From: an uncultured Croceicoccus sp.
Lineage (GTDB): Bacteria > Pseudomonadota > Alphaproteobacteria > Sphingomonadales > Sphingomonadaceae
NCBI RefSeq assembly: GCF_947496385.1
Contig: NZ_CANMCP010000015.1
Coordinates: 1 to 33,691 of the forward strand
Length of the DNA: 33,691 nucleotides
Direction of reading: 5' to 3'
Shown: positions 3,456 to 30,200 of the stretch, piece after piece
How positions within the stretch are numbered: the stretch's first letter is position 1
Layout of the letters: every line of letters starts with the position of its first letter
Notes under the pieces: model-generated
Databases searched by the model: none
Seen by the model: only the letters and a program-made list of their open reading frames with translations
Told to the model about the DNA's origin: nothing
Made by a program: the position numbers and the translations under genes

Positions 3456-3481
3456 GAGAATGCCATTCTCAAAAGTTGACG
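3456..3481 (+). promoter_or_regulatory. Predicted IclR-type operator plus -35 element (copy 1)
   Basis: GAGAATGCCATTCTC (3456-3470) is a 15-bp dyad with perfect arms. Five bases later comes TTGACG (3476-3481), a plausible -35 box for the gene starting at 3527. A -10 element is not convincing; TTAGTG sits 17 nt further on. The same arrangement with the same 5-nt spacing recurs three times in this window. The site lies between divergent genes, so it could also act on the CoA-transferase B gene. Confidence 0.7.
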
Positions 3482-3526
3482 ATTGCTCGCGGGTCCGGTT
3501 AGTGCGGGTTCCTGCAAGGAGAGAGT

Positions 3527-4717
3527 ATGATCGAGATTTCCCGGCGGGCGCGCGATATTGGCGGCGAGGTGGAGCGCTTCGTGCGCGATGTCATCGTTCC
3601 ATTCGAAACTGACGGGCGCCGCGACCACCACGGGGCGCCGACCGAGGAACTGGTGCGCGAAATGCGCGATCTGGCGAATGATGCCGGGCTGATGACGCCC
3701 CATATTCTGGAGGACGGCAGCCACCTGACCCAGGTCGAAACCGCGCATGTGCTCATCCGGTCCGGGCTCTCCCCGCTTGGCCCGCTGGCGCTCAACACCA
3801 ATGCGCCGGACGAAGGTAATATGTATTTGCTCGGCCATGTCGGCAGCGACCATCTGAAGAAAAAGTTTCTGGGTCGGCTGGTGTCGGGCGAGGAGCGCAG
3901 CGCCTTCTTCATGACAGAGCCCGCCGAATGGGGCGGGGCGGGGTCGGATCCTTCGATGATGAAGACCACCTGCCGCAAGGATGGCAATCATTGGGTCGTG
4001 AACGGGCGCAAGGTGTTCATCACGGGTGCCGATGGCGCCGGCGTCGGTATCGTGATGGCAAAGGCCGAGAGCGTAGAGGAGGGGGGCGGTGCTTGCATGT
4101 TCATCGTCGACCTGCCGGATCCCGCAATTCGTATCGAGCGCGTTCCCAACACGATCGACAATTCGATGCCGGGTGGACACGCCAGCGTGGCGATCGAGAA
4201 CCTTCGCGTTCCGGCTGACCAGATGCTTGGCGAGGCCGGCGAGGGTTTTCGCTATGCGCAAGTCAGGCTCAGTCCTGCGCGCCTTTCGCACTGCATGCGC
4301 TGGTTGGGTGCGGCGATGCGCTGCCAGGAAATCGCCATCGATTATGTCTGCCGGCGCGAAGCGTTCGGCAAACTGCTGATCGATCACGAAGGGGTCGGTT
4401 TCATGTTGGCGCAGAACCAGATCGACCTGAAACAGGCGGAATTGATGGTCTTCTGGTGTGCATCGATACTTGACTCCGGCGATCTGGGCACGACCGAGAG
4501 CTCCATGACCAAAGTCGCAGTGTCGGAAGCCCTGATGCGTGTTGCGGACAATTGCGTGCAGGTTCTGGGCGGGACGGGGGTGACCGACAAAACGGTGGTC
4601 GAACAGGTGTTTCGCGAATTGCGCGCGTTCCGGATCTATGATGGCCCGACGGAAGTCCACAAGTGGTCGCTCGCGAAAAAGATCAAGAAGGCGCAGCAGA
4701 GGAAAGCTGTGCCGTGA
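3527..4717 (+). CDS. Acyl-CoA dehydrogenase, ACAD10/11-like clade
   Basis: This 396-aa flavoprotein has the full acyl-CoA dehydrogenase fold: an N-terminal helical domain, a beta domain with FFMTEPAEWGGAGSD and WVVNGRKVFITGA, and a C-terminal helical domain with VQVLGGTGVTD. At the position of the usual catalytic Glu (YEGT in MCAD) it has YDGPTEVH, so Asp372 replaces Glu. This (A/Y)DGPxEVH form is typical of ACAD10/ACAD11 and related bacterial enzymes. The start is the ATG at 3527, with AAGGAGAG 4-11 nt upstream. It overlaps the next gene, a phosphotransferase, by 4 bp (GTGA). The pairing of dehydrogenase and kinase is the same as in ACAD10/11 and in levulinate catabolism (LvaA and LvaC). A predicted operator lies just upstream. 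Confidence 0.9.
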   Translation: MIEISRRARDIGGEVERFVRDVIVPFETDGRRDHHGAPTEELVREMRDLANDAGLMTPHILEDGSHLTQVETAHVLIRSGLSPLGPLALNTNAPDEGNMYLLGHVGSDHLKKKFLGRLVSGEERSAFFMTEPAEWGGAGSDPSMMKTTCRKDGNHWVVNGRKVFITGADGAGVGIVMAKAESVEEGGGACMFIVDLPDPAIRIERVPNTIDNSMPGGHASVAIENLRVPADQMLGEAGEGFRYAQVRLSPARLSHCMRWLGAAMRCQEIAIDYVCRREAFGKLLIDHEGVGFMLAQNQIDLKQAELMVFWCASILDSGDLGTTESSMTKVAVSEALMRVADNCVQVLGGTGVTDKTVVEQVFRELRAFRIYDGPTEVHKWSLAKKIKKAQQRKAVP

Positions 4718-5778
4718 GCACCTTGGGCCAGGAGAATACCGGCACGACAGCAGTGCGCGAGGGATACGAAATCGATCGCGACGCTCTCAATGCATGGATG
4801 GGCGAGAATATTCTCGATTACTCGGGACCGCTCAGGATCGCGCAATTCAAGGGCGGCCAATCCAATCCGACCTATCGGCTCGCATCGCCCTCCGGTCGTT
4901 ACGTCCTGCGCCGCAAACCGCCCGGCGAAATCCTGAAAGGGGCTCACGCGGTCGAGCGGGAGGCCCGCGTCATGGCGGCGCTGGGCGAAACCGAATTTCC
5001 CGTGCCGCGAATTCTGGGCCTGTGCAACGAGGATACCGTCCTAGGAACGCCATTTTTCGTGATGGAGATGGTCGAGGGCCGGATATTCTGGGACGCAAGC
5101 TTTCCCGACGTCGGGCGTGACCAACGGCCTGCCTATTTCGGCGCAATGAATGATACGCTCGCGCGGCTCCACTCGGTAGATTTCGAGGCCGTCGGCCTTG
5201 GCGATTACGGGAGGCCGGGAAACTATTTCGCGCGTCAGATCGGACGCTGGTCAAAGCAATATCTCGCCGACGAGGAGGCCGGGCGCGATCCCGAGATGGA
5301 TGCGCTGGTCGAATGGTTGCCGCGGAATATCCCGCCTGGCGACGAGACCACGATCGTTCATGGCGATTGCCGGTGCGACAACATGATCTTTCACCCCACC
5401 GAGCCGCGCGTGCTGGCCGTGCTCGACTGGGAGCTTTCCACGCTTGGCCATCCGCTCTCCGACTTTTCCTATAATGCCATGATGTACCGCATGCCGCCCC
5501 ATATCGTGCCCGGATTGCGCGACGCTGATTTGAATGCGCTGAATATCCCGACCGAGCGCGAATATATCGACGATTACTGCCGCCGCACGAGGCGCGATGG
5601 CATCGCCAATTGGGATTTCTACATCGCGTTCAACTTTTTTCGCCTGGCGGCAATTTTCCACGGGATCAAGGGACGGGTCATTCGCGGAAATGCCTCCAGT
5701 GCCCAAGCGGCTGAGAGGGCAGCGGATTTCCCTCAGCTGGCGAGACTTGCCGGCGATGCGATGCGCGCCTGCTCCTGA
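4714..5778 (+). CDS. APH/ACAD10-11-type kinase, putative hydroxyacyl-CoA kinase
   Basis: This 354-aa protein is of the aminoglycoside-phosphotransferase superfamily. It has a kinase-like N-lobe (FKGGQSNPTYRL, then YVLRRKPPG), the catalytic loop VHGDCRCDN (Asp about 218, Asn about 223) and the metal-binding segment VLDWELSTLGHPLSD (Asp about 238). The kinase domains of ACAD10/11 and LvaA belong to this group and phosphorylate the 4-hydroxyl of hydroxyacyl-CoAs, after which the partner dehydrogenase removes the phosphate. An upstream in-frame ATG exists at 4663. The GTG at 4714 is preferred because it overlaps the preceding stop (GTGA) and has AGAGGAAA about 8 nt upstream. It is almost certainly translationally coupled to the dehydrogenase. 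Antibiotic resistance is unlikely given this context. Confidence 0.88.
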   Translation: MSTLGQENTGTTAVREGYEIDRDALNAWMGENILDYSGPLRIAQFKGGQSNPTYRLASPSGRYVLRRKPPGEILKGAHAVEREARVMAALGETEFPVPRILGLCNEDTVLGTPFFVMEMVEGRIFWDASFPDVGRDQRPAYFGAMNDTLARLHSVDFEAVGLGDYGRPGNYFARQIGRWSKQYLADEEAGRDPEMDALVEWLPRNIPPGDETTIVHGDCRCDNMIFHPTEPRVLAVLDWELSTLGHPLSDFSYNAMMYRMPPHIVPGLRDADLNALNIPTEREYIDDYCRRTRRDGIANWDFYIAFNFFRLAAIFHGIKGRVIRGNASSAQAAERAADFPQLARLAGDAMRACS

Positions 5779-5803
5779 AACAGACAGAGGAAAACCCCTT
5801 CTC

Positions 5804-6964
5804 ATGAATGAAGCCTATATCGTTGAAACACTGCGTACACCCGGCGGTCGCCGCAAGGGAGCGGCCTCGCACTGGCATCCGGCGGACATGGCCGCTGAAG
5901 TCATCAATGCCTTGCTCGACAAGACAGGCATCGACCCCGCGGCGGTGGATGACGTGATCCTCGGTTGCGTCACCCAAGCGGGCGAGCAGAGCAACGCCTT
6001 TGCGCGTAATGCGGTGCTTTCGTCCAGATTGCCGCAATCGGTGCCGGGCGTTACCATCGACCGCCAGTGCGGCAGTTCGCAGCAATCGATACATTTCGCA
6101 GCGCAGTCGGTGATGAGCGGCATGCAGGACATGGTGATTGCAGGCGGCGGGGAGAGCATGACGCGGGTGCCGATGTTTTCGAACCGCAAGCTGCATGACG
6201 AGGCGGGCCTTGGCGAAGGGCCGTACAGCCGGCGTGTCCTTGAACGGTACGGTGTCGACGGGTTCAACCAGTTCACGGGCGCGGAAATGATGGCCGCGAA
6301 ATATGGCTTTTCGCGTGAGGATCTCGACAACTTCGCGTTGATGAGCCACCGCAAGGCGGCCGTCGCTTCGCGTTCCGGAGCCTTCGACGCGGAGATGGTG
6401 CCGCTCACGGACAGCGAAGGAACGCATACGCAGGACGAAGGCATTCGCTTTGATGCTTCCCTGGAGGCGCTGGCCGATCTCAAGCCTCTTGTGGAGGATG
6501 GGGTCATTACGGCAGGCAATGCCAGCCAGATCTGCGACGGGGCGTCGGGCTTGCTGATCGTGGGAGAACGCGCGCTAAGGGATCATGGCCTGACGCCCAT
6601 TGCGCGTATCGCCGGCATGACCGTAACGGCAGGCGATCCGGTCATCATGCTGGACGAGCCGATCAATGCAACGCGCCGGGCGATGGAGCGGGCGGGTATG
6701 AACCTGGATCAGATCGACCTTTACGAAGTCAATGAGGCGTTCGCACCCGTGCCGATGGCTTGGCTGCAACAACTGGATGCGGATCCGGACAGGCTGAACG
6801 TCAATGGCGGTTCGATCGCGCTAGGCCATCCGCTGGGCGCGACGGGCGCCAAACTCACGGCAACGTTGATCCACGCCCTTAGATCGCGGGGTAAACGCTA
6901 CGGCCTGCAAACGATGTGCGAGGCAGGCGGCATCGCGAACGTCACGATATTCGAGGCGCTCTGA
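5804..6964 (+). CDS. Acetyl-CoA C-acyltransferase (thiolase)
   Basis: This is a 386-aa type II thiolase with all catalytic residues: nucleophile Cys89 in DRQCGSSQQ, His342 in NGGSIALGHPLGATG and Cys372 in MCEAGG, plus the VNEAFA motif. It cleaves 3-ketoacyl-CoA into acetyl-CoA (or propionyl-CoA) and a shortened acyl-CoA. The open frame extends upstream, but the ATG at 5804 is chosen because the protein then begins MNEAYIVETLRTP, the normal thiolase N-terminus. It follows the kinase gene after 25 bp and is the third gene of this plus-strand unit. It ends 8 bp before the convergent SDR gene; a short GGCGTT/AACGCC dyad spans the junction but is too small to call a terminator. Confidence 0.93.
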   Translation: MNEAYIVETLRTPGGRRKGAASHWHPADMAAEVINALLDKTGIDPAAVDDVILGCVTQAGEQSNAFARNAVLSSRLPQSVPGVTIDRQCGSSQQSIHFAAQSVMSGMQDMVIAGGGESMTRVPMFSNRKLHDEAGLGEGPYSRRVLERYGVDGFNQFTGAEMMAAKYGFSREDLDNFALMSHRKAAVASRSGAFDAEMVPLTDSEGTHTQDEGIRFDASLEALADLKPLVEDGVITAGNASQICDGASGLLIVGERALRDHGLTPIARIAGMTVTAGDPVIMLDEPINATRRAMERAGMNLDQIDLYEVNEAFAPVPMAWLQQLDADPDRLNVNGGSIALGHPLGATGAKLTATLIHALRSRGKRYGLQTMCEAGGIANVTIFEAL

Positions 6965-6972
6965 TCACGGCG

Positions 6973-7743
6973 TTACAACGCCTGACCATCGTCGATCGTG
7001 ATAGTCGAGCCCGTTACATAGCGCGACGCATCCGAAGCGAGGTAGAGGGCAATATCGTCCAGCGCATCGATATCCATGAGGTGGCGGCGATGCCAGCTCG
7101 CGATCTGTGCCTTGCCAGCGTCGCTTTCGAACCATTCGTCTCCCATCTCGGTGCGAATATAACCTGGCTGGATGGTGTTCACATTGATGCCTTGCCGCAC
7201 CCATTCGCGGGCAAACTGGCGTCCAAGATGCGCGACGCCTGCCTTGCTGGCGGCATAGGCGGCGTCCCCCTGATTGGTCATATCCGCTGTGACGGAGCCG
7301 ATCAGGACGATGCGTCCCCGTGCAAGCGCCCGCATGTTCGATGCGATCATCCGCCCCGCACCCTCACGCACGGTCAGATAAAGGCCCAGCAGGTTTGTAT
7401 CGAACACGGACCTCAGCGCATCTGCCGATACATCGGTCGAGCGCCCCGCGCGCGAGACGCCCGCATTTGCAAAGATGGTATCGACCCTGCCGAACTCATC
7501 TTCGGCTAGATCGTAGGCGTTGCGCACCGATGCTTCGTCAACCACATCGAGCGGGACCGCCAGCGCCTTACCACCGCCTTCGTTGATCTTGTCGGCGAGC
7601 GCCATCGTGCGATCGGTCCGCCGGGCACCGAGCACCAGCTTTGCACCGGCCTGCGCCAGCTTAATTGCGAGATGCATGCCGATGCCGGACGATGCCCCAC
7701 TGACGAGCGCGATGCGGCCCTCGAGAGAATGATTGCGTGTCAT
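6973..7743 (-). CDS. Short-chain dehydrogenase/reductase
   Basis: This 256-aa classical SDR has GASSGIG (about residues 16-22), FANAG (91-95) and the catalytic set N117, S150, Y163 and K167 (YAASK). The second-strand end, GARRTDR, has basic residues, which leans towards NADP(H). Its start overlaps the stop of the upstream GMC gene by 4 bp (ATGA), so the two are probably cotranslated, and it may oxidise or reduce the product of the GMC enzyme. The exact substrate cannot be told. It resembles general SDRs annotated as 3-oxoacyl-ACP reductase-like or glucose dehydrogenase-like proteins. Confidence 0.88.
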   Translation of the reverse strand: MTRNHSLEGRIALVSGASSGIGMHLAIKLAQAGAKLVLGARRTDRTMALADKINEGGGKALAVPLDVVDEASVRNAYDLAEDEFGRVDTIFANAGVSRAGRSTDVSADALRSVFDTNLLGLYLTVREGAGRMIASNMRALARGRIVLIGSVTADMTNQGDAAYAASKAGVAHLGRQFAREWVRQGINVNTIQPGYIRTEMGDEWFESDAGKAQIASWHRRHLMDIDALDDIALYLASDASRYVTGSTITIDDGQAL

Positions 7744-9323
7744 GCTCGCTCCTGTTCAAGATCATGTTCGATAAGGTCGGATGCCCTCCAAGCCATCGCG
7801 CAGACAGGCGCAAACGTGTTCCCCGAAGGCATGACTGGCGCGATGGAGAGGTCGACGACGCGCAGGCCTTTGATTCCGCGCACGCGGCATCGCGGATCGA
7901 CGACCGATTCCTCGTCCACGCCCATGCGGCAGGTGCCTGCGGCGTGATAGGCAGGCGTTCCCAGCATCCGGTAGGCCTCGATGATGGCATCATCGCTTTC
8001 CGCCTCAGCGCCCGGCCGCGTCTCCTCCACGATGATGTCGCAGAGAGGCTTCGTAAGGGCCAGCGCACGTACGTAGCGGACCGTCCCTATCAGCTCCCGC
8101 CGCTCCTGCTCGTTCGAGAAAAAGTCGAGGGCACCCTCGGGCAGCACAGCGGGATCGCGCGAGACGATGTGAACATGGCCGCGCGCGCGAGGGCGGAGGG
8201 GGTAGATCACCGCCTGAATGCCGGGGAAGCTTTCCATCGCCATCTTCGCGCTGGAACGATCAATGCTGTGCGGTGCGAACAGCAATTGGGCATCGGGACG
8301 ATCGGCATCGGCATGACTTCGAAACCAGCCGATGACATCGAAAGTGCCACTCGCGAGCGGACCTTCATGCTTCAGGTAATATTGCGCAGCATTTTTCAGC
8401 AGGCGGAGGCCTGAATATTCGCGGTTCAAGGAATAATGCGGCCGCGTGCGCCATTGGAGCGTGATGCCGCAATGTTCGAAAAGATTGTCGCCTACGCCTC
8501 TGTTCTGGGCAACCAGAGGAATGCCCAGTTGATCGAGATATTCCGGATCGCCAATGCCCGAGCGTTCCAGGATTGCCGGCGAGCCGAAAGTGCCCGAAGC
8601 GAGAATGATTTCGTGCGCCCGCCAGACCTCCTCCTTGCCGTTGCGCAGCCCTGCAACACCCGTCGCGCGGCCATTCTCGAACAGGACCCGATCGACCGTC
8701 ACGCCGGTTTCGATCGCCAGATTGCCGCGGTTCTTGACGGGATCGAGAAAGGCGGCCGCAGCGCTCTGGCGTCTGCCATGCCAGACGGTCTGGGGACAGT
8801 ACCCTATCGCCTCCACGGCGTCCGGATCGTTGGGATTGCCACGCCGCGACAGCCCCAGCGCCTCGCCGGCCTCTATCACCGCGTCCATTTCCGGACGGGG
8901 AGGCGGGACGGATGTCCGAAGGCCGTTCTCCCCTTCCAGAGCGTCGAAAGCCTGTGCGATATGCTCCCATGCCCAATCATCGCCTGCCTTTTTGGCAAGC
9001 GCATCGTAGTCTGCGGGCTTTCCGCGAACATACATCATGCCGTTGGTGGAGGACGAGCCGCCAAGCGTCTTCCCGCGTACCCAGAAGCCGGCCGGCTCGT
9101 TGTTACCGGCGCGGCCTGAAATGCGAAAAGGCCAGACATAAGCAGAATTGGCCAACACCTTGCCCACACCCTTGGGCATATGGATCATCGGATTCCTGTC
9201 GGGCGGTCCGGCCTCCAGCAGGAGCACCTGTCGGTTCGGACTGGCGCTCAGACGGTTGGCGAGAACACACCCAGCCGCACCACCCCCGACGATGATCACA
9301 TCTGCGATTTGCCCGTTTGCCAT
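7740..9323 (-). CDS. GMC-family FAD alcohol dehydrogenase/oxidase
   Basis: This 527-aa flavoprotein is of the glucose-methanol-choline family. It has an N-terminal dinucleotide fold VGGGAAGCVLANRLS, the GMC signature around GKTLGGSSSTNGMMYVRG, and a second signature including ASGTFGSPAILERSGIGDP. The C-terminal active-site pair is His460 (YHAAGTCRMG) and Asn502 (PSGNTFAP). No signal peptide is seen, so it probably acts in the cytoplasm. It resembles choline- and polyethylene-glycol-dehydrogenase-like enzymes that oxidise primary alcohols to aldehydes. Start ATG at 9323 with GGAAAGG just upstream. It overlaps the downstream SDR by 4 bp and is divergent from a thiolase-like gene. Confidence 0.92.
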   Translation of the reverse strand: MANGQIADVIIVGGGAAGCVLANRLSASPNRQVLLLEAGPPDRNPMIHMPKGVGKVLANSAYVWPFRISGRAGNNEPAGFWVRGKTLGGSSSTNGMMYVRGKPADYDALAKKAGDDWAWEHIAQAFDALEGENGLRTSVPPPRPEMDAVIEAGEALGLSRRGNPNDPDAVEAIGYCPQTVWHGRRQSAAAAFLDPVKNRGNLAIETGVTVDRVLFENGRATGVAGLRNGKEEVWRAHEIILASGTFGSPAILERSGIGDPEYLDQLGIPLVAQNRGVGDNLFEHCGITLQWRTRPHYSLNREYSGLRLLKNAAQYYLKHEGPLASGTFDVIGWFRSHADADRPDAQLLFAPHSIDRSSAKMAMESFPGIQAVIYPLRPRARGHVHIVSRDPAVLPEGALDFFSNEQERRELIGTVRYVRALALTKPLCDIIVEETRPGAEAESDDAIIEAYRMLGTPAYHAAGTCRMGVDEESVVDPRCRVRGIKGLRVVDLSIAPVMPSGNTFAPVCAMAWRASDLIEHDLEQERA

Positions 9324-9345
9324 GCCTTTCCAACCTTTTTCTTGC

Positions 9346-9369
9346 GAGAATGATCTTTCGCATACAGAA
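9346..9369. promoter_or_regulatory. Candidate regulatory site GAGAATG-N8-CATACAGAA (copy A)
   Basis: This site lies in the short gap between the divergent GMC and thiolase-like genes. The two blocks GAGAATG (9346-9352) and CATACAGAA (9361-9369) recur with the same 8-nt spacing at 30082-30105, in the other divergent region between the MFS and TonB receptor genes. The first block equals the left half-site of the GAGAAT-N3-ATTCTC operators. This is pattern evidence only. Confidence 0.35.
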
Positions 9370-9376
9370 TAGTGAG

Positions 9377-10879
9377 ATGACTGACCAGCCTGAATTCGAC
9401 CCCCGACAATGTCCGGTTATCATCGGCGCAGGGGAACTGGCCGATCGACCCGAAAATCTGGCCGACGCGCTTGATCCGGCAGGTTTGATGGTCGCTGCCC
9501 TTCGGTTGGCGGAGCGCGATGCGGATTGTGAAAACCTTCTCGCCCGGCTCGATCGACTTGATATCATCAACGAAATCTCGTGGCCGTATCCGGATCCGGA
9601 GGCTGAACTGCGGCGTCGATTGGGGCAGTCTGAATTGCAGACCCGCTACTGGCCAGTCGGCGGGCAGACGCCGATCACGGCGCTGCACGAGGCAGCGCTC
9701 GATATTCAGGCCGGTAGGGCGCGGATAATCGCCGTTTGCGGAGGCGAGGCTGAGGATAGTGTACGCCGGGCGCGCAAGAGCCAAGCCGCCCTGAATTGGC
9801 CCGAGCGGGATGAGGGTTTCCGCCCGGTGCGCGGCGGGGATTATCAGGGCAGGGTTGCAAAGACACTGGGATTGACGAGCCCTGTTAACGTCTATCCGCT
9901 TTATGAAAATGCGAGCCGCGCGGCATGGCGACAGAATTTTGATACCGCGCAGCAAGAGAGCGCCCGCATCTGGTCGCGCAATTCGCATATTGCCGCTGCA
10001 CGCGATGCTGCATGGCTCAAAAGCGCCGTCGATCCCGAGACGATACTGTCAGGCGATGGCGGCAATCGCCTGATCGCCTGGCCCTACCGTAAGTTGATGG
10101 TTGCCAATCCGATCGTGAACCAGGGCGCGGCGTTTATCGTGACCAGCTTGACGATGGCGCGCGAGCTCGGCATTTGTGAAGATCGCATGATCTTCATTCA
10201 CGGCGGCACGGCCGCTGACGAGCCGCGCGACATCCTTGCGCGGCAAGACTACAGCTTTTCGCGGGCCATGGAGGGCGTGCTTGGACAAAGCGCGAAGCTG
10301 GCAGGCGACAAATTCGCTGTCGAACTGTACAGCTGTTTTCCCTGTGTTCCGAAAATGGCGCGGCGCGTACTCGGCTTGTCCGACCACGATGCGTTGAGCG
10401 TGACAGGAGGGCTTACCTTCTTCGGCGCGCCGCTTAACAACTTCATGGGACATGCCGTGGTCGCGATGGTGCACCATTTGCGACGGCAAAGCGGCTGGGG
10501 CCTGCTTTACGGCCAAGGTGAATATGTGACGAAGCATCACGCGGTGATGCTCGGCACGAAGAAACCCGAACGGGCCTTGCCGCAGCATTACCGAATGCGG
10601 GATCTGGAAAAAGACATCGAACGCGCCGCTCCGCGCCTTGACCAGTCCCATCGCGGACTGGCGAGGCTGGAAACCTACACCGTAGTGTTCGATCGCAATG
10701 AAGACGTACGCCAGGGCATAGCTATTGCCCGTGCGCCGGATGGCAGCCGCGTTGCCGCTCGGGTGGAGGCCGACGATGCTTGCACGCTCGAGAAACTCAT
10801 GAGCGAAGTCGATCTGGTCGGTCGCCAAGGTGAGATTGGAATAGGCGCGGATGAATTGCCACACTGGTGCTTTATCTAG
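9377..10879 (+). CDS. Thiolase-like acetyl-CoA acetyltransferase with extra C-terminal domain
   Basis: From the ATG at 9377 this is a 500-aa protein of the thiolase superfamily subgroup that carries an added C-terminal domain. Recognisable features are PVIIGAGELADRP at the N-terminus, AVCGGEAEDS, ANPIVNQGAAFIVTS, VELYSCFPC and GGLTFFGAPLNNFMGHA, then GLLYGQGEYVTKHHAVMLG. The last 90 or so residues form the extra domain. Members are annotated as acetyl-CoA acetyltransferases, but few have been studied. Which Cys and His act here is not certain; the CVP and HAV positions are candidates. Alternative starts exist upstream (ATG at 9350 and at 9317); 9377 is preferred because the domain begins soon after, although no strong ribosome site is visible. 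It stands alone, divergent from the GMC gene, and is followed by an IS relic. Confidence 0.82.
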   Translation: MTDQPEFDPRQCPVIIGAGELADRPENLADALDPAGLMVAALRLAERDADCENLLARLDRLDIINEISWPYPDPEAELRRRLGQSELQTRYWPVGGQTPITALHEAALDIQAGRARIIAVCGGEAEDSVRRARKSQAALNWPERDEGFRPVRGGDYQGRVAKTLGLTSPVNVYPLYENASRAAWRQNFDTAQQESARIWSRNSHIAAARDAAWLKSAVDPETILSGDGGNRLIAWPYRKLMVANPIVNQGAAFIVTSLTMARELGICEDRMIFIHGGTAADEPRDILARQDYSFSRAMEGVLGQSAKLAGDKFAVELYSCFPCVPKMARRVLGLSDHDALSVTGGLTFFGAPLNNFMGHAVVAMVHHLRRQSGWGLLYGQGEYVTKHHAVMLGTKKPERALPQHYRMRDLEKDIERAAPRLDQSHRGLARLETYTVVFDRNEDVRQGIAIARAPDGSRVAARVEADDACTLEKLMSEVDLVGRQGEIGIGADELPHWCFI

Positions 10880-10888
10880 GATCGGGAC

Positions 10889-11506
10889 TCATCGGAGCAG
10901 CGAGAAGATGACAATTGCCGGGATGCGCATGGAGGGCATAAAGCTATTTTTGATTTGACGGGTTTCATGCGGTGAGTTTTCCGCGAGGCTATAGCCCTTG
11001 TCGGCGAGCAGTGCGCTGCCGCGGGGCAGAGCGTTGACTATCGATGCCGCGCTTTCCAAACCGCTCGTCTGCCCCCCGCTTAGTAGCATGACCAGAGGTG
11101 GTCCCTGACAATTGCTTCTTGCCTGAAGCCTGGAGTGAAGCTTGCGCTCCAGGCCGACCTTGGCACGCCCACTATGTTGAGAAAGAGGCCGTTTTTAATA
11201 AACCTGACCGCTAAGTGATGAGCTTTCAATCGGTGCATCAATCATCGGTTCATTCGGCTCTCCACCTTTCGCAGCGAGCGCAGCAGAGATCTCTGCGGAC
11301 ACACCCAGACCGCTCCACCTAAGGAACCGATTGGAAATGGCCTTTCGCTTGGCCCACTCCGCGAAGGCGTCACGCCAGCGCAGACCCTGGCGGATTGATC
11401 AGATAATCCCGCTGACTATCCGCCGGCCACCGATCCGCGGCAATCCATGTTACACGGGGAAATGCGGCTCGATCCAGCGCATCGGCGCCTCAGGCAACCC
11501 GATCAT
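10889..11506 (-). pseudogene. Decayed IS5-type transposase
   Basis: The 709-bp gap between the thiolase-like and enoyl-CoA hydratase genes is mostly a dead transposase. One continuous frame, read from 11506, gives LPEAPMRWIEPHFP, a stop, HGLPRIGGRRIVSG, a stop, then RQGLRWRDAFAEW, NRFLRWSGLGV, AALAAKGGEPNEPMIDA, a stop, GRAKVGLERKLHS, LVMLLSGGQTSG and ALLADKGYS. These are the ordered landmarks of IS5-family (IS427-like) transposases, including the first two catalytic Asp. In-frame stops lie at 11450-11452 (TAA), 11399-11401 (TGA) and 11195-11197 (TAA). The C-terminal part after DKGYS is lost and the frame ends at 10889. Clear terminal repeats were not found. It is older than the IS6 copies, judging by its decay. 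Confidence 0.85.
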
Positions 11507-11588
11507 ATCAATCGTGACGACGACGACTCAGGATTGCCGATGGTTCCAATCATCGCGCGTTTTGGAAACCTTGTTACGCATCATGCGC

Positions 11589-12413
11589 TCAGCGGCCCTT
11601 CCAGATAGGCTGCCGCTTTTCAGCGAATGCTTTGGGTCCTTCCCGATACTCTTCCGAGCCTAGCATGACATCGAGCGCCTCGTTATCGCGCTGGCTGAGA
11701 AAAGCCTGCTCCAGTGACGCTTTTTCGAGACCCTTGCGGGCGATGCTTTTCGCAGCGCGAATGGCGAGCGGGCTGCCCTGCAGGATCATCTCCGCCCAGC
11801 GGCGTGCCTCGGCGATCAGTTCCTCGGGAGATACGACACTGTTCACAAATCCCATCTCGCGGGCTTCGTGTGCCGATACCCGGCGGCCGGTCAGGATCAT
11901 GCCCATCGCCTGCTGCCAACCGATCGTGCGAGGCAGGCGATGCAACCCGCTTGCAAGCGCTGCCATCCCGACCCGTGGTTCGGGCAGGGCGAAGATTGCA
12001 TCATCCGATGCGATCACGATGTCGCATGACAGGGCAATCTCGCACCCGCCGCCAAGCGCCAGCCCGTTCACGGCCGCGATGATCGGCTTCTCGCAGTCGA
12101 ACCGTCCGGTCAGGCCGCCGAAATCGCTGTCGGGTCGGTCGAGTCCGCCCCCTTTTGCCTGGAACTTCAGATCGTTTCCGGCGCTGAAGGCGCGCCCCTC
12201 GCCAGTGATGATGGCAATCCACTGCTCCGGATCTGCTGCAAACTCGTCAAACACACGGGCAAGTTCGAAATGCGCGTCGGTATGAAGCGCGTTGAGACAA
12301 TCCGGGCGATTGATCTTGACGATCGTGAGCGGCCCTTCACGCAGAACTTTGCAGTATTGCGTCGGCGCGGCGGCGCCGTCCTGTCGCGTTTCCCCTGTCT
12401 GGTTAGTTGTCAC
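11589..12413 (-). CDS. Enoyl-CoA hydratase/isomerase family protein
   Basis: This 274-aa crotonase-fold protein has the oxyanion-hole segment AFSAGNDLKF and NGLALGGGCEIAL, and both acid residues used by hydratases are present (Glu in GGGCEIAL and Glu in ALPEPRVG). The ALPEPRVGMAALASGLHRLPR stretch is closer to carnitinyl-CoA dehydratase-like members than to classical FadB. It probably hydrates an enoyl-CoA to a 3-hydroxyacyl-CoA. It starts at a GTG (12413) preceded by GAGG about 9 nt upstream. It is 40 bp downstream of the ADP-forming synthetase gene. A synthetase plus hydratase pair of this type is known in sphingomonad ferulate breakdown (FerA/FerB), but this is only a parallel in layout and family, not evidence for ferulate. 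Confidence 0.88.
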   Translation of the reverse strand: MTTNQTGETRQDGAAAPTQYCKVLREGPLTIVKINRPDCLNALHTDAHFELARVFDEFAADPEQWIAIITGEGRAFSAGNDLKFQAKGGGLDRPDSDFGGLTGRFDCEKPIIAAVNGLALGGGCEIALSCDIVIASDDAIFALPEPRVGMAALASGLHRLPRTIGWQQAMGMILTGRRVSAHEAREMGFVNSVVSPEELIAEARRWAEMILQGSPLAIRAAKSIARKGLEKASLEQAFLSQRDNEALDVMLGSEEYREGPKAFAEKRQPIWKGR

Positions 12414-14639: not shown

Positions 14640-14689
14640 ACCGCAGAACAAGAATTCTTTACCGAGAAAGTAATTCGGAATCGGGTGAA

Positions 14690-16178: not shown

Positions 16179-17384
16179 TCAGGAAGCCGGCTTGGTGTCG
16201 GCCAGCAAGTGGCTTTCGAGTTGATCGTAATAGGTCGGAATGGTGTTCTCCATCCCGCCATAGGTCAGCTTGCCGAGGCCGCCTGACGCAAGCCCTTCAT
16301 GCGCGGTCTGCGAAGCGCGGAAATCTTCGTTTCCGAACACATCCAGAACCAGGTCATAGGAGCGCTTCGCGATGTCCTTGGCCTTGTCGGTCACAGGCTC
16401 CTCGGGCAGCAGCATGTAGTAATCGACCAGCGTGCGATCTGGCGCTCTGGGCATCAGCACCATCATCGAGATATAGTATGGACTGGTGATCAGGACCGCG
16501 TTCGGAAAAATCTGATAGGCATGGGTGACGGTCTTGTGGATGTTCTCATCCCGGTTCTCGATCATTTCCGGCTCGAACTGGACTTTGCCCGCGACCTTGC
16601 GCTGATGAGGGCCCAGCTTGCTGACGATGACGGGCATGTCCCTGAACAGGTCTCCGATCGAATCCCTGTGCAGCCGCGTCACGTGGTAACTTTCCATGAA
16701 AGGCTCGAGCACGAGCTTCCAGTTCGCCTTCAGATCGAAACGCTTTGTATCGTACAAATAGGCATCGGGTACGCCCAGATGCTGCATGTCTATGGCAAAG
16801 CCTTCGTCCATTCCGCTCCAGTCGGGATCGATCGCGCGATCGAGAACACCCCAGATGATCCCCGCATGCTCGCGCACCGGCAGCGTCGGCAGGTGGTATT
16901 CCGATTTGTCGAACTCTTCGAAAAGCTCGCTTCGCGCGGCGCCCAGCAGCTTTCCGTCCAGAGCGTAGGTCCAGCTGTGATAGGGGCACACAAGCCGGCT
17001 GAGCTTGTGGACCTTGCAATCCTCGATCAGCTTGGAGCCCTTATGCTGGCAAGCGTTGTAGTACAGTCCGATCTGGCCTTCCTTGTCCCGAACGACCAGT
17101 AGCGCCATGCCATAGCCATCGAAGGCGACGGCGGATCCGGGCTCGGGAAGGCGCGAAGAAGGCATGAGCGGCACCGGCAACCGGCGGAAAACGGAGCGTT
17201 GCTCGAGATCGAAATGCTTCTGATCGAGAAAGATGGAGGCCGGACGTGTCTTCTTTATCACCGGCTTCAGCCAGTCCGCGATCGGCACCGGTTCATGCCC
17301 CGCATCATGGGCAGGTATCTTGCGAATGTCCTCGATCTGGCTTGGGCTCAGATCGTTCAATGTTGGTTTCCTAGGTGTTCCCAT
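16179..17384 (-). CDS. Rieske non-heme iron oxygenase, alpha subunit
   Basis: This 401-aa oxygenase has an N-terminal Rieske domain with C112-x-H114 (ACQHKGS) and C133-x2-H136 (CPYHSW) as [2Fe-2S] ligands. The catalytic domain has NWKLVLEPFMESYHVTRLH, where His234 and His239 bind the mononuclear iron and Glu231 takes the place of the usual bridging Asp. A later acidic segment (NEDFRASQTAHEGL) probably supplies the third ligand. The family does dihydroxylation, monooxygenation or demethylation, and the substrate cannot be inferred. Of two ATGs, 17384 is preferred because GGAGGGG lies 6-12 nt before it. No ferredoxin, reductase or beta subunit gene is present in the window. It is the first gene of its operon and a predicted operator lies 72 bp upstream. 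Confidence 0.92.
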   Translation of the reverse strand: MGTPRKPTLNDLSPSQIEDIRKIPAHDAGHEPVPIADWLKPVIKKTRPASIFLDQKHFDLEQRSVFRRLPVPLMPSSRLPEPGSAVAFDGYGMALLVVRDKEGQIGLYYNACQHKGSKLIEDCKVHKLSRLVCPYHSWTYALDGKLLGAARSELFEEFDKSEYHLPTLPVREHAGIIWGVLDRAIDPDWSGMDEGFAIDMQHLGVPDAYLYDTKRFDLKANWKLVLEPFMESYHVTRLHRDSIGDLFRDMPVIVSKLGPHQRKVAGKVQFEPEMIENRDENIHKTVTHAYQIFPNAVLITSPYYISMMVLMPRAPDRTLVDYYMLLPEEPVTDKAKDIAKRSYDLVLDVFGNEDFRASQTAHEGLASGGLGKLTYGGMENTIPTYYDQLESHLLADTKPAS

Positions 17385-17455
17385 CGGGTTCCCCTCCATA
17401 TTCCGCGGTTATTCTTGAATTTATGGGCTATGGAATGGCGAAGATTGCGCACCAA

Positions 17456-17481
17456 TGTCAATCATTGAGAATAACATTCTC
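17456..17481 (-). promoter_or_regulatory. Predicted IclR-type operator plus -35 element (copy 2)
   Basis: Read on the minus strand, GAGAATGTTATTCTC (17481-17467) is followed after 5 nt by TTGACA (17461-17456). The Rieske gene begins 72 nt further on. The site lies in the divergent gap with the IclR gene, so it could serve both the catabolic operon and autoregulation. On the plus strand a separate TTGACC is present at 17502-17507 towards the IclR gene. No strong -10 is visible. Confidence 0.7.
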
Positions 17482-17539
17482 GATAGAAAATATATTGCGC
17501 ATTGACCGGAGTGGCGGACCGCAATAGCTCTCGCGCATC

Positions 17540-18298
17540 ATGTCCGCCCCATCAGAAAAACCAAAAGGCAAGCCGGTAGGAGCTGTGGTGCAGACCATCA
17601 GGCTTCTGCGAGCCTTGTCGGAATCAGACGCCCCGTTGGGCGTGAGCGCCGCAGCGCGCGCGGCCGGGATCAACACCTCCACGGCATTCAATGTTTTGCG
17701 CACTCTGACAGCCGAAACTTTGACGGTGTTTGACGAGCCGACGAAAACATATTCGCTTGGGCCGGGCTTGCTTGATCTGTGCGGCGCCTTGCGGCAACCG
17801 AGCCTTGCCGAGAAGATACGTGCGGAGCTGCCCGAACTCGCGGCGAAAACCGGCCGGCTGATCGCGCTCTGGGAAGTCATGGGGACGCGGCTTATCCTGC
17901 TCGATCGCGCGCAGAGCGATCGTCCCGTTCGTCTCGACCTTGATCTCACGCAGCGCATGCCGCGTTATCTTGGTGCTGTGGGCCGTGCTGCCGCAGCGGC
18001 GGATGGTCTTGGAAAGGCTGCGTTGAAAAAGGAATTCGGCAAGCTTCGCTGGGCAGGCGACATTTCCCCGGCGGATTACGTTGAAAGCGTCGAACTTGCC
18101 CGACAGCAGGGTTACGGCGTTGATCGTGGGGCCCTTTACGAAGGTATTGTCGCAATTGCCTCGGTAGTGACGGATACAGAAGGCAAGCCCGTGCTTGGCC
18201 TGTCTGCGATCGAATTCGCCGAGCGGCTGAACGAGGACGATATAGCTGCGACCGGCAAGATGCTCGCCGACGTTACGCGGCATTATTCCGCCGACTGA
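17540..18298 (+). CDS. IclR-family transcriptional regulator (first)
   Basis: This 252-aa protein has an N-terminal winged helix-turn-helix (about residues 14-65; VSAAARAAGINTSTAFNVLRTL is the HTH core) and the C-terminal IclR effector domain (TGRLIALWEVMGTRLILLDRA, YLGAVGRAAAAADGL, QGYGVDRGALYEGIVAIASVV). These regulators bind palindromic sites and respond to small aromatic or carboxylic ligands. It is divergent from the Rieske/ALDH operon, with a GAGAAT-N3-ATTCTC dyad between them, so that operon is its likely target. It is clearly paralogous to the second IclR at 22269-23045 along its whole length. Its last 16 bp overlap the convergent ALDH gene end. No good ribosome site is seen before the ATG. 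Confidence 0.9.
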   Translation: MSAPSEKPKGKPVGAVVQTIRLLRALSESDAPLGVSAAARAAGINTSTAFNVLRTLTAETLTVFDEPTKTYSLGPGLLDLCGALRQPSLAEKIRAELPELAAKTGRLIALWEVMGTRLILLDRAQSDRPVRLDLDLTQRMPRYLGAVGRAAAAADGLGKAALKKEFGKLRWAGDISPADYVESVELARQQGYGVDRGALYEGIVAIASVVTDTEGKPVLGLSAIEFAERLNEDDIAATGKMLADVTRHYSAD

Positions 18299-20918: not shown

Positions 20919-22148
20919 TCACGCTTTTCCCGGAACTTCCCATTCCAGCGGCAGGCTTTCCAGCGACATCACCACGCCCGCGCGCCAATCTTCCTCGAAA
21001 CCGGATTTCACGCGAAAGCGAGGAATGCGAGTCAGGAATTCTTCGATGAAAATTCGCACCTCCGCACGCGCCATCCAATGCCCCAGACACAGATGCGGCC
21101 CGGTCGAGAAGCCGACATGCTTGCGCCCCTTGCGATCAATGTCGAACTCGGTGGGATTGTCATTCACCTCCGGATCGAGCCCGGCGAGCGTCATGGGTGC
21201 GACGATCATTTCACCGGCTTTCAAATGAGCGCCGGCGAGTTCCATGTCCTTGCGGATCAGGCGGACCCCATTGGTGACAGGGAAGCGACGCATGCTCTCG
21301 TCGAAGAAATCCTTGATATCATCAGGATTCTCCCGGAGCCGGTCTTGGAGAGCGGGATTGTGCGCCAGATGGTTGAAACCGAAGGTCAGGGCATTCGCCA
21401 CCGTATCGAGACCCGCCACGAACAGAAGGAAGCCGATCGAGAGAAGCTCGTCCTCCGTCAGCGGTCGTCCGTCAATTTCCTCGTTCACGAGCTTCGTAAA
21501 GAGGTCATCCTGCGGGTTTTCGCGGCGATCGTCGAAAACAGCCTTCAATTCCGAGAGCATCTTGCGCTGCAATTCAATGCGGCGCTCCCTGGTTATCTGG
21601 CCGAAGAATTCGGTCACCAGATTGCGGAACTCGACATAGCGGTCCAGCGGCAGGCCCGCCATCTCCATGAAGATCGTCACGGGGTAAAGCGCGCCCAGTT
21701 CGGTGGCGAAATCGCACGCGCCTCGATCCTGCACCTTGCCAATCAATTCCTTCGACCAATGATGCATTTTGTCCTCGAGGCCGGCGATCACCTTCGGGGT
21801 AAAGTGCTTCATCAGCATCTTGCGGTAGGGGGTGTGCGCTGGCGGATCCAGGTTGATGGGGATGGCCCGGATCGGGCTCTCGGTCTTGGGTACTTCGATC
21901 TCGTTGTTCGAGAAACTCTCGTGCTCGCTAATGACCTGAGTCACCAACTCGTAATTCGTCACCAGCCAGTGCCCGCCATTGTGCGGGGTATAGAAAATTT
22001 CGGGAGCCTCCCGCGCCATCTCGAAATATCCGAGATGAGGATTTTTCAGCAGACGTTCGTCTTGATAGATGTCGAACTCGTAAACCTGATCTGCACGCAC
22101 ATGCGCCGGGATTTCGACCTTCTGCCCGCTTGCTCCACCACCTGACAC
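20919..22148 (-). CDS. Cytochrome P450, CYP101-like
   Basis: This 409-aa class I bacterial P450 has the I-helix oxygen-activation motif AGLDTV (Asp248, Thr249), the ExxR motif at Glu284-Arg287 and the heme loop FSTGPHLCLG with thiolate Cys354. Segments such as HNGGHWLVT, FVAGLDTVANAL, EEFLTRIP and VVMSLESLPLEW align readily with P450cam (CYP101A1), so a CYP101-type relation is likely; members oxidise monoterpenoids and norisoprenoids. It starts at a GTG (22148) with GGAGAG about 8 nt upstream. No ferredoxin or ferredoxin reductase gene lies in the window, so electrons must come from proteins encoded elsewhere. It heads a P450-AKR-ALDH block and has its own operator-promoter module upstream, although it also lies downstream of the second IclR gene. 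Confidence 0.93.
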   Translation of the reverse strand: MSGGGASGQKVEIPAHVRADQVYEFDIYQDERLLKNPHLGYFEMAREAPEIFYTPHNGGHWLVTNYELVTQVISEHESFSNNEIEVPKTESPIRAIPINLDPPAHTPYRKMLMKHFTPKVIAGLEDKMHHWSKELIGKVQDRGACDFATELGALYPVTIFMEMAGLPLDRYVEFRNLVTEFFGQITRERRIELQRKMLSELKAVFDDRRENPQDDLFTKLVNEEIDGRPLTEDELLSIGFLLFVAGLDTVANALTFGFNHLAHNPALQDRLRENPDDIKDFFDESMRRFPVTNGVRLIRKDMELAGAHLKAGEMIVAPMTLAGLDPEVNDNPTEFDIDRKGRKHVGFSTGPHLCLGHWMARAEVRIFIEEFLTRIPRFRVKSGFEEDWRAGVVMSLESLPLEWEVPGKA

Positions 22149-22243
22149 TGCTTTCTCTCCAATCGCTTGCTCTTGGTGCCGCGTGAAAATCGGCGGCCCG
22201 TAGCCTATGTTTTGATGGTCAGAATCACAGTGTGGAAGCGATC

Positions 22244-22269
22244 CGTCAATATTTGAGAATAATATTCTC
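22244..22269 (-). promoter_or_regulatory. Predicted IclR-type operator plus -35 element (copy 3)
   Basis: On the minus strand GAGAATATTATTCTC (22269-22255) is followed after 5 nt by TTGACG (22249-22244), 95 nt before the P450 GTG. Its first base is the last base of the IclR stop codon (TAG), so operator and gene end overlap. GATTCT 17 nt after the -35 box is a weak -10 candidate. The site gives the P450-AKR-ALDH block its own control within the longer run of genes. Confidence 0.7.
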
Positions 22270-23045
22270 TATTCCGAATTATCGGAAGGAAATCCCGAGA
22301 AGCGAATGGCAAGCTCTCGCAAGTCCTTGCCCAGTTCCTTCAGTCGCTCCCGATCCAGCCTGTGCGCGATGTCGCTGGCGGTCAGGCCGTGGGTAACCGT
22401 CCCGTCGCTGTCCACGATCACGGCAGCCACCGTAACGATGCCCGGATGCAAAGCACCCTCGTCAATCGCGTATCCGGCCTCGCGCGCCATCTGCACCTCG
22501 GCGATGTAGCGCTCGCCATCGAGCGGTCCGTCCCAGCGGATTTCATCGAAGCCATCTCGAAGCTTTTCGTCGGATAGACCTTGGGCCGCAGCCCAGGCGC
22601 GCCCCACCGCCCCGGCAAACGCAGGCAGTTTCTGATGGATCTGCATGTCGAGCCGCACCGGGCTTTTTGCCACGGCCCGCTCGACCAGTTGCATCCTGCC
22701 ATTGGTCGATTGCCAAAGGCCCACAAGGCAAGTCGTCCTGTCGGCGATGCGCTGCAGATCGCCGACCATTTCCTGCTCCAGGGATCGCGCCGCCATACCG
22801 CCGCATATTTCGAGCAAGCCGCGTGACAGGGCGTAGGTTTTGGTACGCTCGTCGAATGTTACCGCGTTTTCAAAAACAAGCGTTCGCAAGATATTGAACG
22901 CAGTCGACGGATTGACATCGGCGGCCCTGGCCAGAGCCGTCACGCCGCGTGGTGGGTCCGCTCGGGCAAGTATCCGCAAAAGGGCGAATGCCTGCGTCAC
23001 GGCACCCACCCTTTTGGCCAACTTCCCTGTCTTTGCGCCGTCCAT
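22269..23045 (-). CDS. IclR-family transcriptional regulator (second)
   Basis: This 258-aa protein has an N-terminal winged HTH (VTALARAADVNPSTAFNILRTL) and a C-terminal ligand-binding IclR domain (TTCLVGLWQSTNGRMQLVERA, FAGAVGRAWAAAQGL, AGYAIDEGALHPGIVTVAAVI). It is paralogous to the regulator at 17540-18298, with which it shares long stretches of the recognition helix region (NPSTAFNILRTL against NTSTAFNVLRTL). The two may therefore read the same or very similar operators. It lies 20 bp after the AMP-forming ligase gene in the same direction, an unusual place for a regulator: it would be made with the pathway it may control, and its stop codon abuts the P450 operator. Confidence 0.9.
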   Translation of the reverse strand: MDGAKTGKLAKRVGAVTQAFALLRILARADPPRGVTALARAADVNPSTAFNILRTLVFENAVTFDERTKTYALSRGLLEICGGMAARSLEQEMVGDLQRIADRTTCLVGLWQSTNGRMQLVERAVAKSPVRLDMQIHQKLPAFAGAVGRAWAAAQGLSDEKLRDGFDEIRWDGPLDGERYIAEVQMAREAGYAIDEGALHPGIVTVAAVIVDSDGTVTHGLTASDIAHRLDRERLKELGKDLRELAIRFSGFPSDNSE

Positions 23046-27718: not shown

Positions 27719-28429
27719 TTAGGCGCTTTCCCGAGTTCGCTCGGTAAGACGCTCGATGCGCTTTTCGTTTATTGTCGCCATCACGATGCGGTCGACATGA
27801 ATGCCGGGCACGTGGATGAAATCGGGGTCGAGCGAGCCGGCCTCGACCAGTTCCTCCACCTCGACCACCGTGACCTTGCCGGCGGTGGCCATTATCGGGT
27901 TGAAATTGCGAGCGGTCTTGCGGAAAACCAGGTTTCCTTCCGGGTCTGCGCGCCAAGCTTTGACCAATGCAACATCCGCTCTGAGCCAACGTTCGCGGAC
28001 ATACTCGATCCCGTCAAAAACCTCGGTCGGCTTTCCCTCGGCCGCCACTGTGCCGACACCGGTCCGGGTATAGAATGCCGGAATGCCGGCACCCCCTGCG
28101 CGAATGCGTTCCGCCAAGGTGCCTTGTGGATTGAGTTCAAGCTCGAGCGCGCCGGAAAGATAAAGCTGCTCGAACAGCTTGTTCTCTCCGACATAGGAAG
28201 AAATCATTTTCTTCACCTGCTTGTTTTCGAGCAGCGCCCACAGGCCGAAGTTATCGGCACCTGCATTGTTGGAGATGACGGTCAGGGATTTCACCTGCGA
28301 TGCGCGAACAGCCTCGATCAGGGTTTCGGGATTGCCGCATAGCCCGAACCCGCCCGACATCAGCGTGATGCCATCTTTCAACAGATCGCTCAGCGCATTA
28401 TCGGCGCTGTCCATTACCTTGTTTCTCAT
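27719..28429 (-). CDS. 3-oxoacid CoA-transferase, subunit A
   Basis: This 236-aa protein has the subunit A signature [15 protein letters not shown] near the N-terminus (CoA-binding glycine-rich motif), then [12 protein letters not shown] and [16 protein letters not shown]. It has the length of ScoA/AtoD/PcaI-type alpha chains. These work only as a complex with a subunit B, usually the next gene. The next gene here is an ALDH, and the only subunit B is at 2725-3384. It starts with an ATG that overlaps the MFS stop (ATGA), so it is coupled to the transporter. With subunit B it would activate a 3-oxoacid or other acid using succinyl-CoA or acetyl-CoA. Confidence 0.93.
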
Positions 28430-29979
28430 AATTGTTCTCCGGCTTGCCGGGCTCTCTCGACGAGGGTTTCCTCAGCTTTTGGCAAGCGTAAGTACAAGAG
28501 GACGAACATCAGGATCGATACGGGTAGCACCGCCATGAGCGAGAGAATGGCCGTGGACATGCTACCGGTGGCCGAAGAGATGGCTCCAACCGAATAGGGA
28601 CCAAGGGCCAGACCGATCATGGTGAGTGATAGAAGGAACGTCGCAGATGCCAATCCGCGCATGCGTGGAAGCACCAGATCCTGCGAGGTGGCCCCTGCCG
28701 CCGGCAAGGTGATGCTACCGAAGAGGATCATCGGAAAATAGAGGACGTAGAACACGCCAAGACTTCCGGTGGTGAAAATCACGGTCAACGGGACGAACGG
28801 AAGGATCGCGCCCGCGATCATCACCATCACGCGGCCCGAGGGATGGCGTTCCCTCAGGAAATCGGCGAAGCGTCCCCCGAAAATCAGGCCAACGAAGCCC
28901 GCCACCGCGCCAGCACCGCCGATAAAAAAGGCGGCCTCGGCGCGGTCCGCACCCAATTCACTTTCGACGTAAGGCAATGACCAGAAGATCACCGCATAGT
29001 TCACGAATGATGTCAGTCCGTGGCCGATGGTGAGATAAAGAAAAGACGGCGTCTTCCATATGAGCGTCCATGCAGGACGGTCACGGCTCTTGAGGGCGGC
29101 AACCCAGCTAAAGATAGCATATACGCCGATACCAACGGCGACCCATTGCAGCTTGTCGCCGGTCCATGCGATCAGACCCAGTGCTATCAACGAAATGAGC
29201 GTGGCCGCGGCAATGTTGACCAACAGCGGTCCGCGCCCGCGGCGCGCCGCCGTGAACAGGCAGAACGGTGGGACCATGGTCAGCAATTCATCGAGGAAAC
29301 CGCGAAAGGGACGCTCCACGGGAGGCTGTTCGATCCCATCCGACAGGCCGCGAACCGGCTCCCTCAACGTGGCGACCAGGCATGCGAGCGCAAGACCGGG
29401 CAGTCCGACTGCCATGAAGGCAGCCTGCCACCCGACGATCCCTTGCCAGCCTTCGGGAAATGCGTCGTTCCATACCTCGACAATCTTCGCGCCGATGAAC
29501 AGCGACGCGCCCGATCCGATATACATTCCGGCGGTATAAAGCGCGATCGCGGTCGCGCGCCGATTCTTCGGAAAGTAGTCGGAGATCAACGAATATGCGC
29601 ACGGCGACGCGGTTGCTTCCCCGACACCCACGCCGATGCGGGCGAGCGTCAATTGCACTCCGGTACGGGCGAAGCCCGACAATGTCGTCATCAACGACCA
29701 GAACGCAAATCCGATCGTAACCAGGCGAATCCTGTTCCAGCTATCGGCAAGGCGACCCATGGGGATGCCGAACAGGGCGTAGAACACGCCGAACGCTGTT
29801 CCGTACAAGAAACCGAGATCGGCATCGGAAAGGCCAAGGTCGCGTTTTAGGTCGAGAGCGAGAACGCTGATGATCTGCCGATCGATGAAGTTGAGCGCGT
29901 AGATCAGCGAAAACACACCCAGCACATAGTTGCGATAGGCGGTCGAAGGATGCTCGCGCGAGATTTCACCGAACTTCAT
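28426..29979 (-). CDS. MFS transporter, spinster-like
   Basis: This roughly 517-aa inner-membrane protein has about 12 hydrophobic segments. MFS landmarks are [33 protein letters not shown] in helix 1-2, then GRLADSWNR (the loop 2-3 motif) and [23 protein letters not shown] in helix 4-5. This is the 'spinster' type often seen in sphingomonad catabolic clusters. It probably moves the substrate or an acidic intermediate across the inner membrane. The frame allows a GTG at 29994; the ATG at 29979 ([11 protein letters not shown]) is chosen. It heads the long minus-strand operon and is divergent from the TonB receptor, a sensible pair for outer- and inner-membrane uptake. Confidence 0.9.
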
Positions 29980-30081
29980 GCGGCCATCCACCACAGGATG
30001 ATCTGACGATTCAGCCGCCGTCGGGCGCTATTCCTTGTCATCTGCCTCTCCCCGGTGACGCCGCTCTTTCCATTCGGAATA

Positions 30082-30105
30082 GAGAATGGTGTTCATCATA
30101 CAGAA
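30082..30105. promoter_or_regulatory. Candidate regulatory site GAGAATG-N8-CATACAGAA (copy B)
   Basis: GAGAATG (30082-30088) and CATACAGAA (30097-30105) are separated by 8 nt, exactly as at 9346-9369. The site lies 103 bp before the MFS start, in the 299-bp divergent gap with the TonB receptor gene. The first block equals an operator half-site; the right half (GTTCAT) of a 6-3-6 dyad is poor. Apart from this site and the one at 30175 nothing else was recognised in the gap. Confidence 0.35.
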
Positions 30106-30174
30106 GTTCATCCCCGTGTAAACCTTGGAGATGGCATCCTCCTCCACGGGCGGCGCTCACCTGAATTCTCTATA

Positions 30175-30200
30175 AAGAACGATATTCTCAAATGTTGACA
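30175..30200 (+). promoter_or_regulatory. Predicted IclR-type operator plus -35 element (copy 4, degenerate)
   Basis: AAGAACGATATTCTC (30175-30189) has a perfect right half (ATTCTC) and four of six bases in the left half. After 5 nt comes TTGACA (30195-30200), 78 nt before the TonB receptor ATG. A further GAATTCTC lies just upstream (30163-30170), so a second half-site is available. The conserved 5-nt spacing to TTGACA makes this a convincing member of the set. Confidence 0.6.

Follow-up and report, generated by a model that had tools for sequence, protein, structure and literature searches.

Seven predicted four-box operators may place an IS-flanked catabolic island under its own IclR-type regulators

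Two types of operator motif have been described for regulators of the IclR family, GKTYCRYW3-4RYGRAMC in group 1 and TGRAACAN1-2TGTTYCA in group 2 (Suvorova and Gelfand 2021, PMC8222616). In the same paper, three-box sites are reported for 32 orthologous groups and tandem sites, spaced 18-22 nt, for 94; it also notes that dual-role IclR proteins are known, and describes Arg52 of TtgV as a direct DNA contact. The DNA examined in the present study, hereafter the window, is contig C15 in full (33,691 bp); the draft genome to which it belongs totals 3,341,467 bp in 55 contigs. A sequence-only reading of this contig had proposed that four transcription units share a module consisting of the dyad GAGAAT-N3-ATTCTC followed at a fixed distance by TTGAC, with two IclR proteins of the same island as its readers, and knew of no described IclR operator of this sequence.

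Perfect dyads are present at 3456-3470, 17467-17481 and 22255-22269 on the strands given in that reading, and the fourth, at 30175-30189, which had been described as degenerate in its left arm, carries two mismatches. TTGAC lies exactly 5 nt 3' of the dyad in all four modules, giving the hexamers TTGACG at 3456 (A) and 22255 (C) and TTGACA at 17467 (B) and 30175 (D), and is always oriented towards a gene. The perfect dyad has three copies in the genome, all of them inside the window. A whole-genome scan for the dyad, 5 nt and TTGAC with up to three mismatches found only the four window places (reversed-pattern control, one per strand). Allowing one mismatch, four of 197 genomes (this one included) matched, and exact modules were found among the 197 only in this genome and in that of a congener (G009). 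One-mismatch module matches in G125 and G139 sit within coding frames whose translations read as ClpX-like and VirD4-like, and their four-box letters do not exceed 11 of 16 (see below); a one-mismatch match in the present genome (L004) also lies in coding sequence, ClpX-like by eye. A dyad-like match at 3232-3246 (one mismatch) was left out of the site count because it lies inside a CoA-transferase gene and has fewer than 12 of 16 box letters.

Taken alone and with mismatches, the dyad is a motif hardly above chance: at up to three mismatches the window holds 19 matches against a shuffle mean of 12.55, a number reached in 4 of 100 shuffles. As the loose dyad barely exceeds shuffles, a four-box model was adopted instead. 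It takes the dyad as the centre of an extended predicted operator, ATTC-N8-GAAT-N3-ATTC-N8-GAAT, with half-sites of alternating direction that form two palindromes 19 bp apart. With at least 12 of 16 letters matching, this pattern occurs at seven places in the window (Table 1). The four modules proposed earlier are all real, but the count becomes seven sites, each made up of three or four boxes rather than of one dyad. Markov shuffles lead to an expectation of approximately 1.2 such places, and 18 stretches taken from elsewhere in this genome (360 kb in all) contain three, or 0.28 per window length; a Poisson estimate made by hand for seven or more per window is about 2e-8. Under 63 other spacer combinations, 0 to 4 window places reached the same threshold. 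Site 30072 (D2) is the only place in the genome with at most two mismatches to the four-box pattern, and at three mismatches there are five places in all, two of them in the window (reversed control, one).

Table 1 Predicted operators and associated genes in the window. Box letters are matches to the four-box pattern; PWM, position weight matrix
Feature	Coordinates	Strand	Location	Box letters	PWM score	Module or basis
Operator A	3446..3480	+	Between CoA-transferase B (-) and acyl-CoA dehydrogenase (+)	12/16	22.4	Module exact; boxes CTTC-GAAT-ATTC, then TTGAC as box 4
Operator 9336 (new)	9336..9370	.	Between GMC oxidoreductase (-, ATG 9323) and thiolase-like gene (+, ATG 9377)	12/16	15.0	
Operator 14654 (new, weakest)	14654..14688	-	Upstream of ATP-grasp CoA ligase (-)	12/16	9.7	
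Operator B	17457..17491	-	Between Rieske oxygenase (-) and iclR1 (+)	12/16	23.6	Module exact; TTGACA points to Rieske gene
Operator C	22245..22279	-	Upstream of P450 (-)	13/16	28.0	Module exact
Operator D2 (new)	30072..30106	-	Upstream of MFS...iclR2 run	14/16	31.7	Best four-box match of the genome
Operator D	30165..30199	+	Upstream of TonB receptor (+)	12/16	22.9	Module with two mismatches; TTGACA faces receptor
Acyl-CoA dehydrogenase	3527..4717	+				Pfam
Rieske oxygenase	16179..17399	-				Pfam
iclR1 (likely reader)	17540..18298	+				Pfam IclR_C 57.5 bits, HTH_IclR 33.3 bits
CYP101-like P450	20919..22148	-				Pfam; best PDB sequence CYP101J2 (5kyo), E 5.5e-83
iclR2 (likely second reader)	22269..23045	-				Pfam IclR_C 51.5 bits, HTH_IclR 42.1 bits
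MFS transporter	28426..29994	-	First gene of run ending in iclR2			Pfam
TonB-dependent receptor	30279..32717	+				Pfam

A symmetric position weight matrix (PWM) was built from 16 sites outside the window, which were chosen by hand for a core first seen inside it. The matrix recovered the four sites noted earlier together with 30072, 9336 and 14654; these seven are its top ranks in the window, where no other position scores 3 or more. That the sites arose by chance, or as copies of a mobile repeat, could appeal to the modest excess of the loose dyad over shuffles, but has a negligible probability given that within the genome only the island carries the module, that the bases between the boxes vary from copy to copy, and that a matrix trained outside the window finds the same places. 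Site 14654 could itself be a chance match, since in the 360-kb background, where nine positions score at least 3, the best two reach 14.7 and 8.4. The former of these (L079:8457-8491) has TTGAC nearby and lies in the gap that follows a TonB receptor frame and precedes a beta-glucosidase-like frame; it is possibly a site of another regulator. Relative to G009, 1 of 245 site bases differs (in 14654, 1 of 35), and the gaps around the sites differ at 8 of 842 positions, a degree of conservation too high to test constraint.

Based on our own gene calls, with runs defined by a single direction or by separating gaps, the island comprises ten gene runs between IS6-type transposases, and all ten have one of the seven sites in their upstream gap. 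Runs 1 to 5 are SDR/CoA-transferase B (-), acyl-CoA dehydrogenase (+), SDR/GMC (-), thiolase-like (+) and ECH/CoA ligase (-); runs 6 to 8 are aldehyde dehydrogenase/Rieske (-), iclR1 (+) and aldehyde dehydrogenase/aldo-keto reductase/P450 (-); and runs 9 and 10 are MFS...iclR2 (-) and TonB receptor (+). The proposal of one regulon over several transcription units is supported. The distal 11 bases of operator C overlap the end of iclR2, and iclR1 is the only IclR gene with a site directly upstream of itself. Upstream of the MFS gene, operator 30072 shares bases with an open frame of 39 codons (30147-30028, -), which may or may not be a gene.

At each end the island is bordered by a transposase frame of the IS240/IS6 type (Pfam DDE_Tnp_IS240), at 1094-1810 and 32892-33671. 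The G009 island is 98.5% identical over 32.4 kb and has related IS copies at both ends, and a 6-kb chromosomal stretch of the present genome found no match in G009. The two 3-oxoacid CoA-transferase subunits, B (2725-3390) and A (27719-28429; both NCBIfam), are encoded 24 kb apart, each downstream of an operator. A short frame at 10889-11089, by eye like a fragment of another transposase, lies in a 0.7-kb gap between convergent genes. P450 and Rieske oxygenases require electron donors; the 30 Pfam-scanned frames of the window, a set that includes part of the short frames, gave no match to a ferredoxin or ferredoxin reductase family. CYP101J2, the closest PDB sequence to the island P450, hydroxylates 1,8-cineole (PMC5598857), and a terpenoid-like substrate for the pathway would be a guess.

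The seven sites are very probably operators of IclR proteins encoded by the island itself (IclR1 and, probably, IclR2), which would make the IS-flanked island a single regulon. Both proteins exceed the Pfam family cut-offs (22 for HTH_IclR, 24 for IclR_C) and they are 42% identical to each other; a search of the genome with IclR1 at E<=1e-20 returned only these two (6 of 10 first-look candidates scored). They reach 52.9 and 60.2 bits against the PcaR/PcaU/PobR model TIGR02431 (cut-off 284.75), and 69.2 and 63.2 bits against the BhcR model NF045644 (cut-off 350), and are assigned to neither. Since the motif STAFN is common to the recognition helices of IclR1 and IclR2, both may read the sites; binding, and which protein would bind where, we infer from sequence.

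The core GAAT-N3-ATTC recurs upstream of distant IclR homologues, as GAGAATATTATTCTC exactly in Bordetella petrii (L043) and as GCGAATAGAATTCGC in Paraburkholderia xenovorans LB400 (L044), with similar sites in several further relatives, other alphaproteobacteria included. The LB400 site matches all 16 four-box letters. Based on simple ORF calls, one of the two best LB400 sites adjoins the IclR gene and an AMP-binding ligase and the other precedes a thiolase C-terminal domain gene, while in B. petrii one of the two best adjoins the IclR gene and the other precedes an enoyl-CoA hydratase gene. Upstream regions (-400 to +20) were scored for 41 homologues; at least 12 of 16 letters are matched in 18 of them and at least 14 in 10. 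For the same regions the two counts are at most 5 and 0 once the outer spacers differ from N8, at most 4 and 0 once the boxes are altered, and 7 and 4 in an N8-N4-N8 layout. Four loci have N4-centre four-box sites (L021, L022, L023 and L031, with 16, 16, 16 and 15 of 16 letters), from which it appears that the clade tolerates two inner spacings. The operator is not universal in the clade, as 23 of the 41 regions remain below 12 of 16, including that of L017, the closest homologue outside the island (42%). Thirteen loci (L047-L059) were retrieved only once the pattern had been settled; four of these have 15 of 16 letters (L048 and L049 being the same site), and a CAAT version of the operator is found at L055 (16/16), L056 (15/16) and L058 (14/16).

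Asn51 of IclR1 aligns with the Arg of S-T-x-Q-R in TtgV, i.e. Arg52. We surveyed residue 51 against box sequence in the 41 homologues, scoring GAAT at 13 or more of 16 letters with an N3 or N4 centre, in counts that ignore kinship. The GAAT box accompanies Asn in 9 of 13 homologues, Ser in 3 of 3 and Tyr in 6 of 9 (2 more with GAAC), compared with 0 of 11 for His, of which 4 have CAAT (one tied with TAAT), and 0 of 5 for other residues. In three of the Tyr members CAAT also scores 13, though less than GAAT does. IclR1 and IclR2 both have Asn at this position, as do GAAT-box members. In this alignment, residue 51 of the predicted recognition helix covaries with the sequence of the box.

As a control, related clusters were identified in five other genomes of the family (L093-L104; 224,494 bp, found among 396 genomes), carrying in varying sets a Rieske oxygenase, CYP101-like P450, AMP ligase, DUF35, SCPx-type thiolase, GMC and TonB receptor. 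No relative of IclR1 or IclR2 was detected in these 224,494 bp at E<=1e-3, and only two positions score 8 or more with the PWM, at 12.1 and 8.0; the former (L094) lies between Rieske and GMC matches, though no IclR relative is present there. This suggests that the related clusters represent a wider catabolic pathway under other control. A reader other than IclR1 and IclR2, belonging to another family and encoded elsewhere, would accord with the use of A/T-rich dyads by other regulators too; it is nonetheless quite unlikely, as the sites recur upstream of IclR homologues, the box covaries with residue 51, and strong sites are missing from the related clusters that lack IclR genes. The same three observations bear out the choice of IclR proteins made by the sequence-only reading, and the predicted IclR reading of the sites is well supported.

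In the arrangement we propose, an IclR dimer of dimers, a putative tetramer, would occupy the row of alternating half-sites with its two palindromes 19 bp apart. At A to D only one of the four letters of the fourth half-site is kept and TTGAC is retained in its place. It is plausible that TTGAC is a -35 box with activation from directly upstream, as the sequence-only reading had it: with such a box in place of box 4, RNA polymerase would have the bound protein immediately upstream of it and would be activated. The best -10 candidates at A to D match TATAAT at only 2-3 of 6 positions at spacers of 15-19, in a group whose -10 boxes may be loose, and weak -10 boxes are expected of activator-dependent promoters. 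A promoter scan of 3300-22400 found five candidates (shuffle mean 6.0) and nothing useful at A, B or C. From these sequence features, activation at A to D has in our estimate slightly better than even chances. Site 30072 has the geometry of repression. This operator covers the -10 box TATGAT of TTTACA-N16-TATGAT (10/12; 30122-30095), apart from which 29900-30400 contains no promoter-like site (shuffle mean 0.2). It is the predicted promoter of the MFS...iclR2 run, and an IclR protein bound over it would repress the run.

Repression throughout, with one DNA-binding domain of an IclR protein lying over the -35 region or core promoter at all seven sites until a putative inducer releases it, is a serious contender that nevertheless falls short of probable. 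At A to D box 4 and the -35 box fall on the same place, 30072 covers a -10 box, site 9336 lies within 15 nt of both flanking start codons, and the sphingomonad IclR-family protein PheR is a repressor that binds from +23 to -21 (PMC13273656). Against this, box 4 is degraded at A to D while TTGAC is kept, and no good -10 box is present there. It is unlikely that TTGAC is part of the operator or the site of a second protein rather than a -35 box. Its fixed spacing in four of the seven sites (9336 and 14654 lack it) and the weak -10 boxes would fit such a role, but it always faces a gene, and none was seen at module distance beside the strong homologue sites that were compiled. More speculatively, on the reading of IclR-dependent activation at A to D, the state of the fourth half-site may decide between the two signs: an operator whose four boxes lie across the core promoter (30072) would repress, and one with a -35 box in place of box 4 (A-D) would let the same protein activate. 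If so, a single operator design would allow a mobile island to wire a whole pathway, the gene for its second regulator included, in both the positive and the negative sense, and related pathway clusters elsewhere would do without such wiring.

For the IS-flanked catabolic island as a whole, the analysis provides a defined predicted operator, the proteins that likely read it and a contact residue open to testing. The island suggests how a single local regulator can take charge of an acquired pathway, and such a pair of operator and regulator could find use in sensing a substrate. Existing knowledge of IclR proteins is not overturned.

Among described systems, PheR of Sphingobium sp. SHPJ-2 (PMC13273656) likewise represents IclR-family control of a sphingomonad catabolic operon, with TonB receptors responding, but has the core GCAACG and a 44-bp footprint and acts as a repressor. 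TtgV (PDB 2xro; PMC8222616) shares the fold by sequence (E 2e-8), and the S-T-x-x-x of the recognition helix aligns with its DNA contacts; it differs in operator sequence and regulates efflux. PcaU and PobR operators (PMC8222616) resemble those of the island in combining a palindrome with an extra external half-site at catabolic genes, but their boxes are of the GTTCG/CGAAC type and the island proteins score far below the corresponding model cut-off. Our literature search found no paper printing an ATTC/GAAT operator sequence, the supplement of PMC8222616 lying outside its scope, so the earlier statement that no such IclR operator is described stands for the letters but not for the general form, which that paper already describes. 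The island operators agree with its tandem palindromes, having alternating half-sites in an N8-N3-N8 layout with centres 19 bp apart (published range 18-22), and as in its operators one pair is group 1-like (TTC-N8-GAA) and the other group 2-like (GAA-N3-TTC). Compared with the group 1 consensus, the inner TTC...GAA and the spacing fit, while the first letter pair is AT and not GT/GG. Differences from the types described there are the ATTC/GAAT boxes, the TTGAC fused at a fixed distance, and the seven copies over one island. The architecture of the predicted operators is thus that of a published IclR type.
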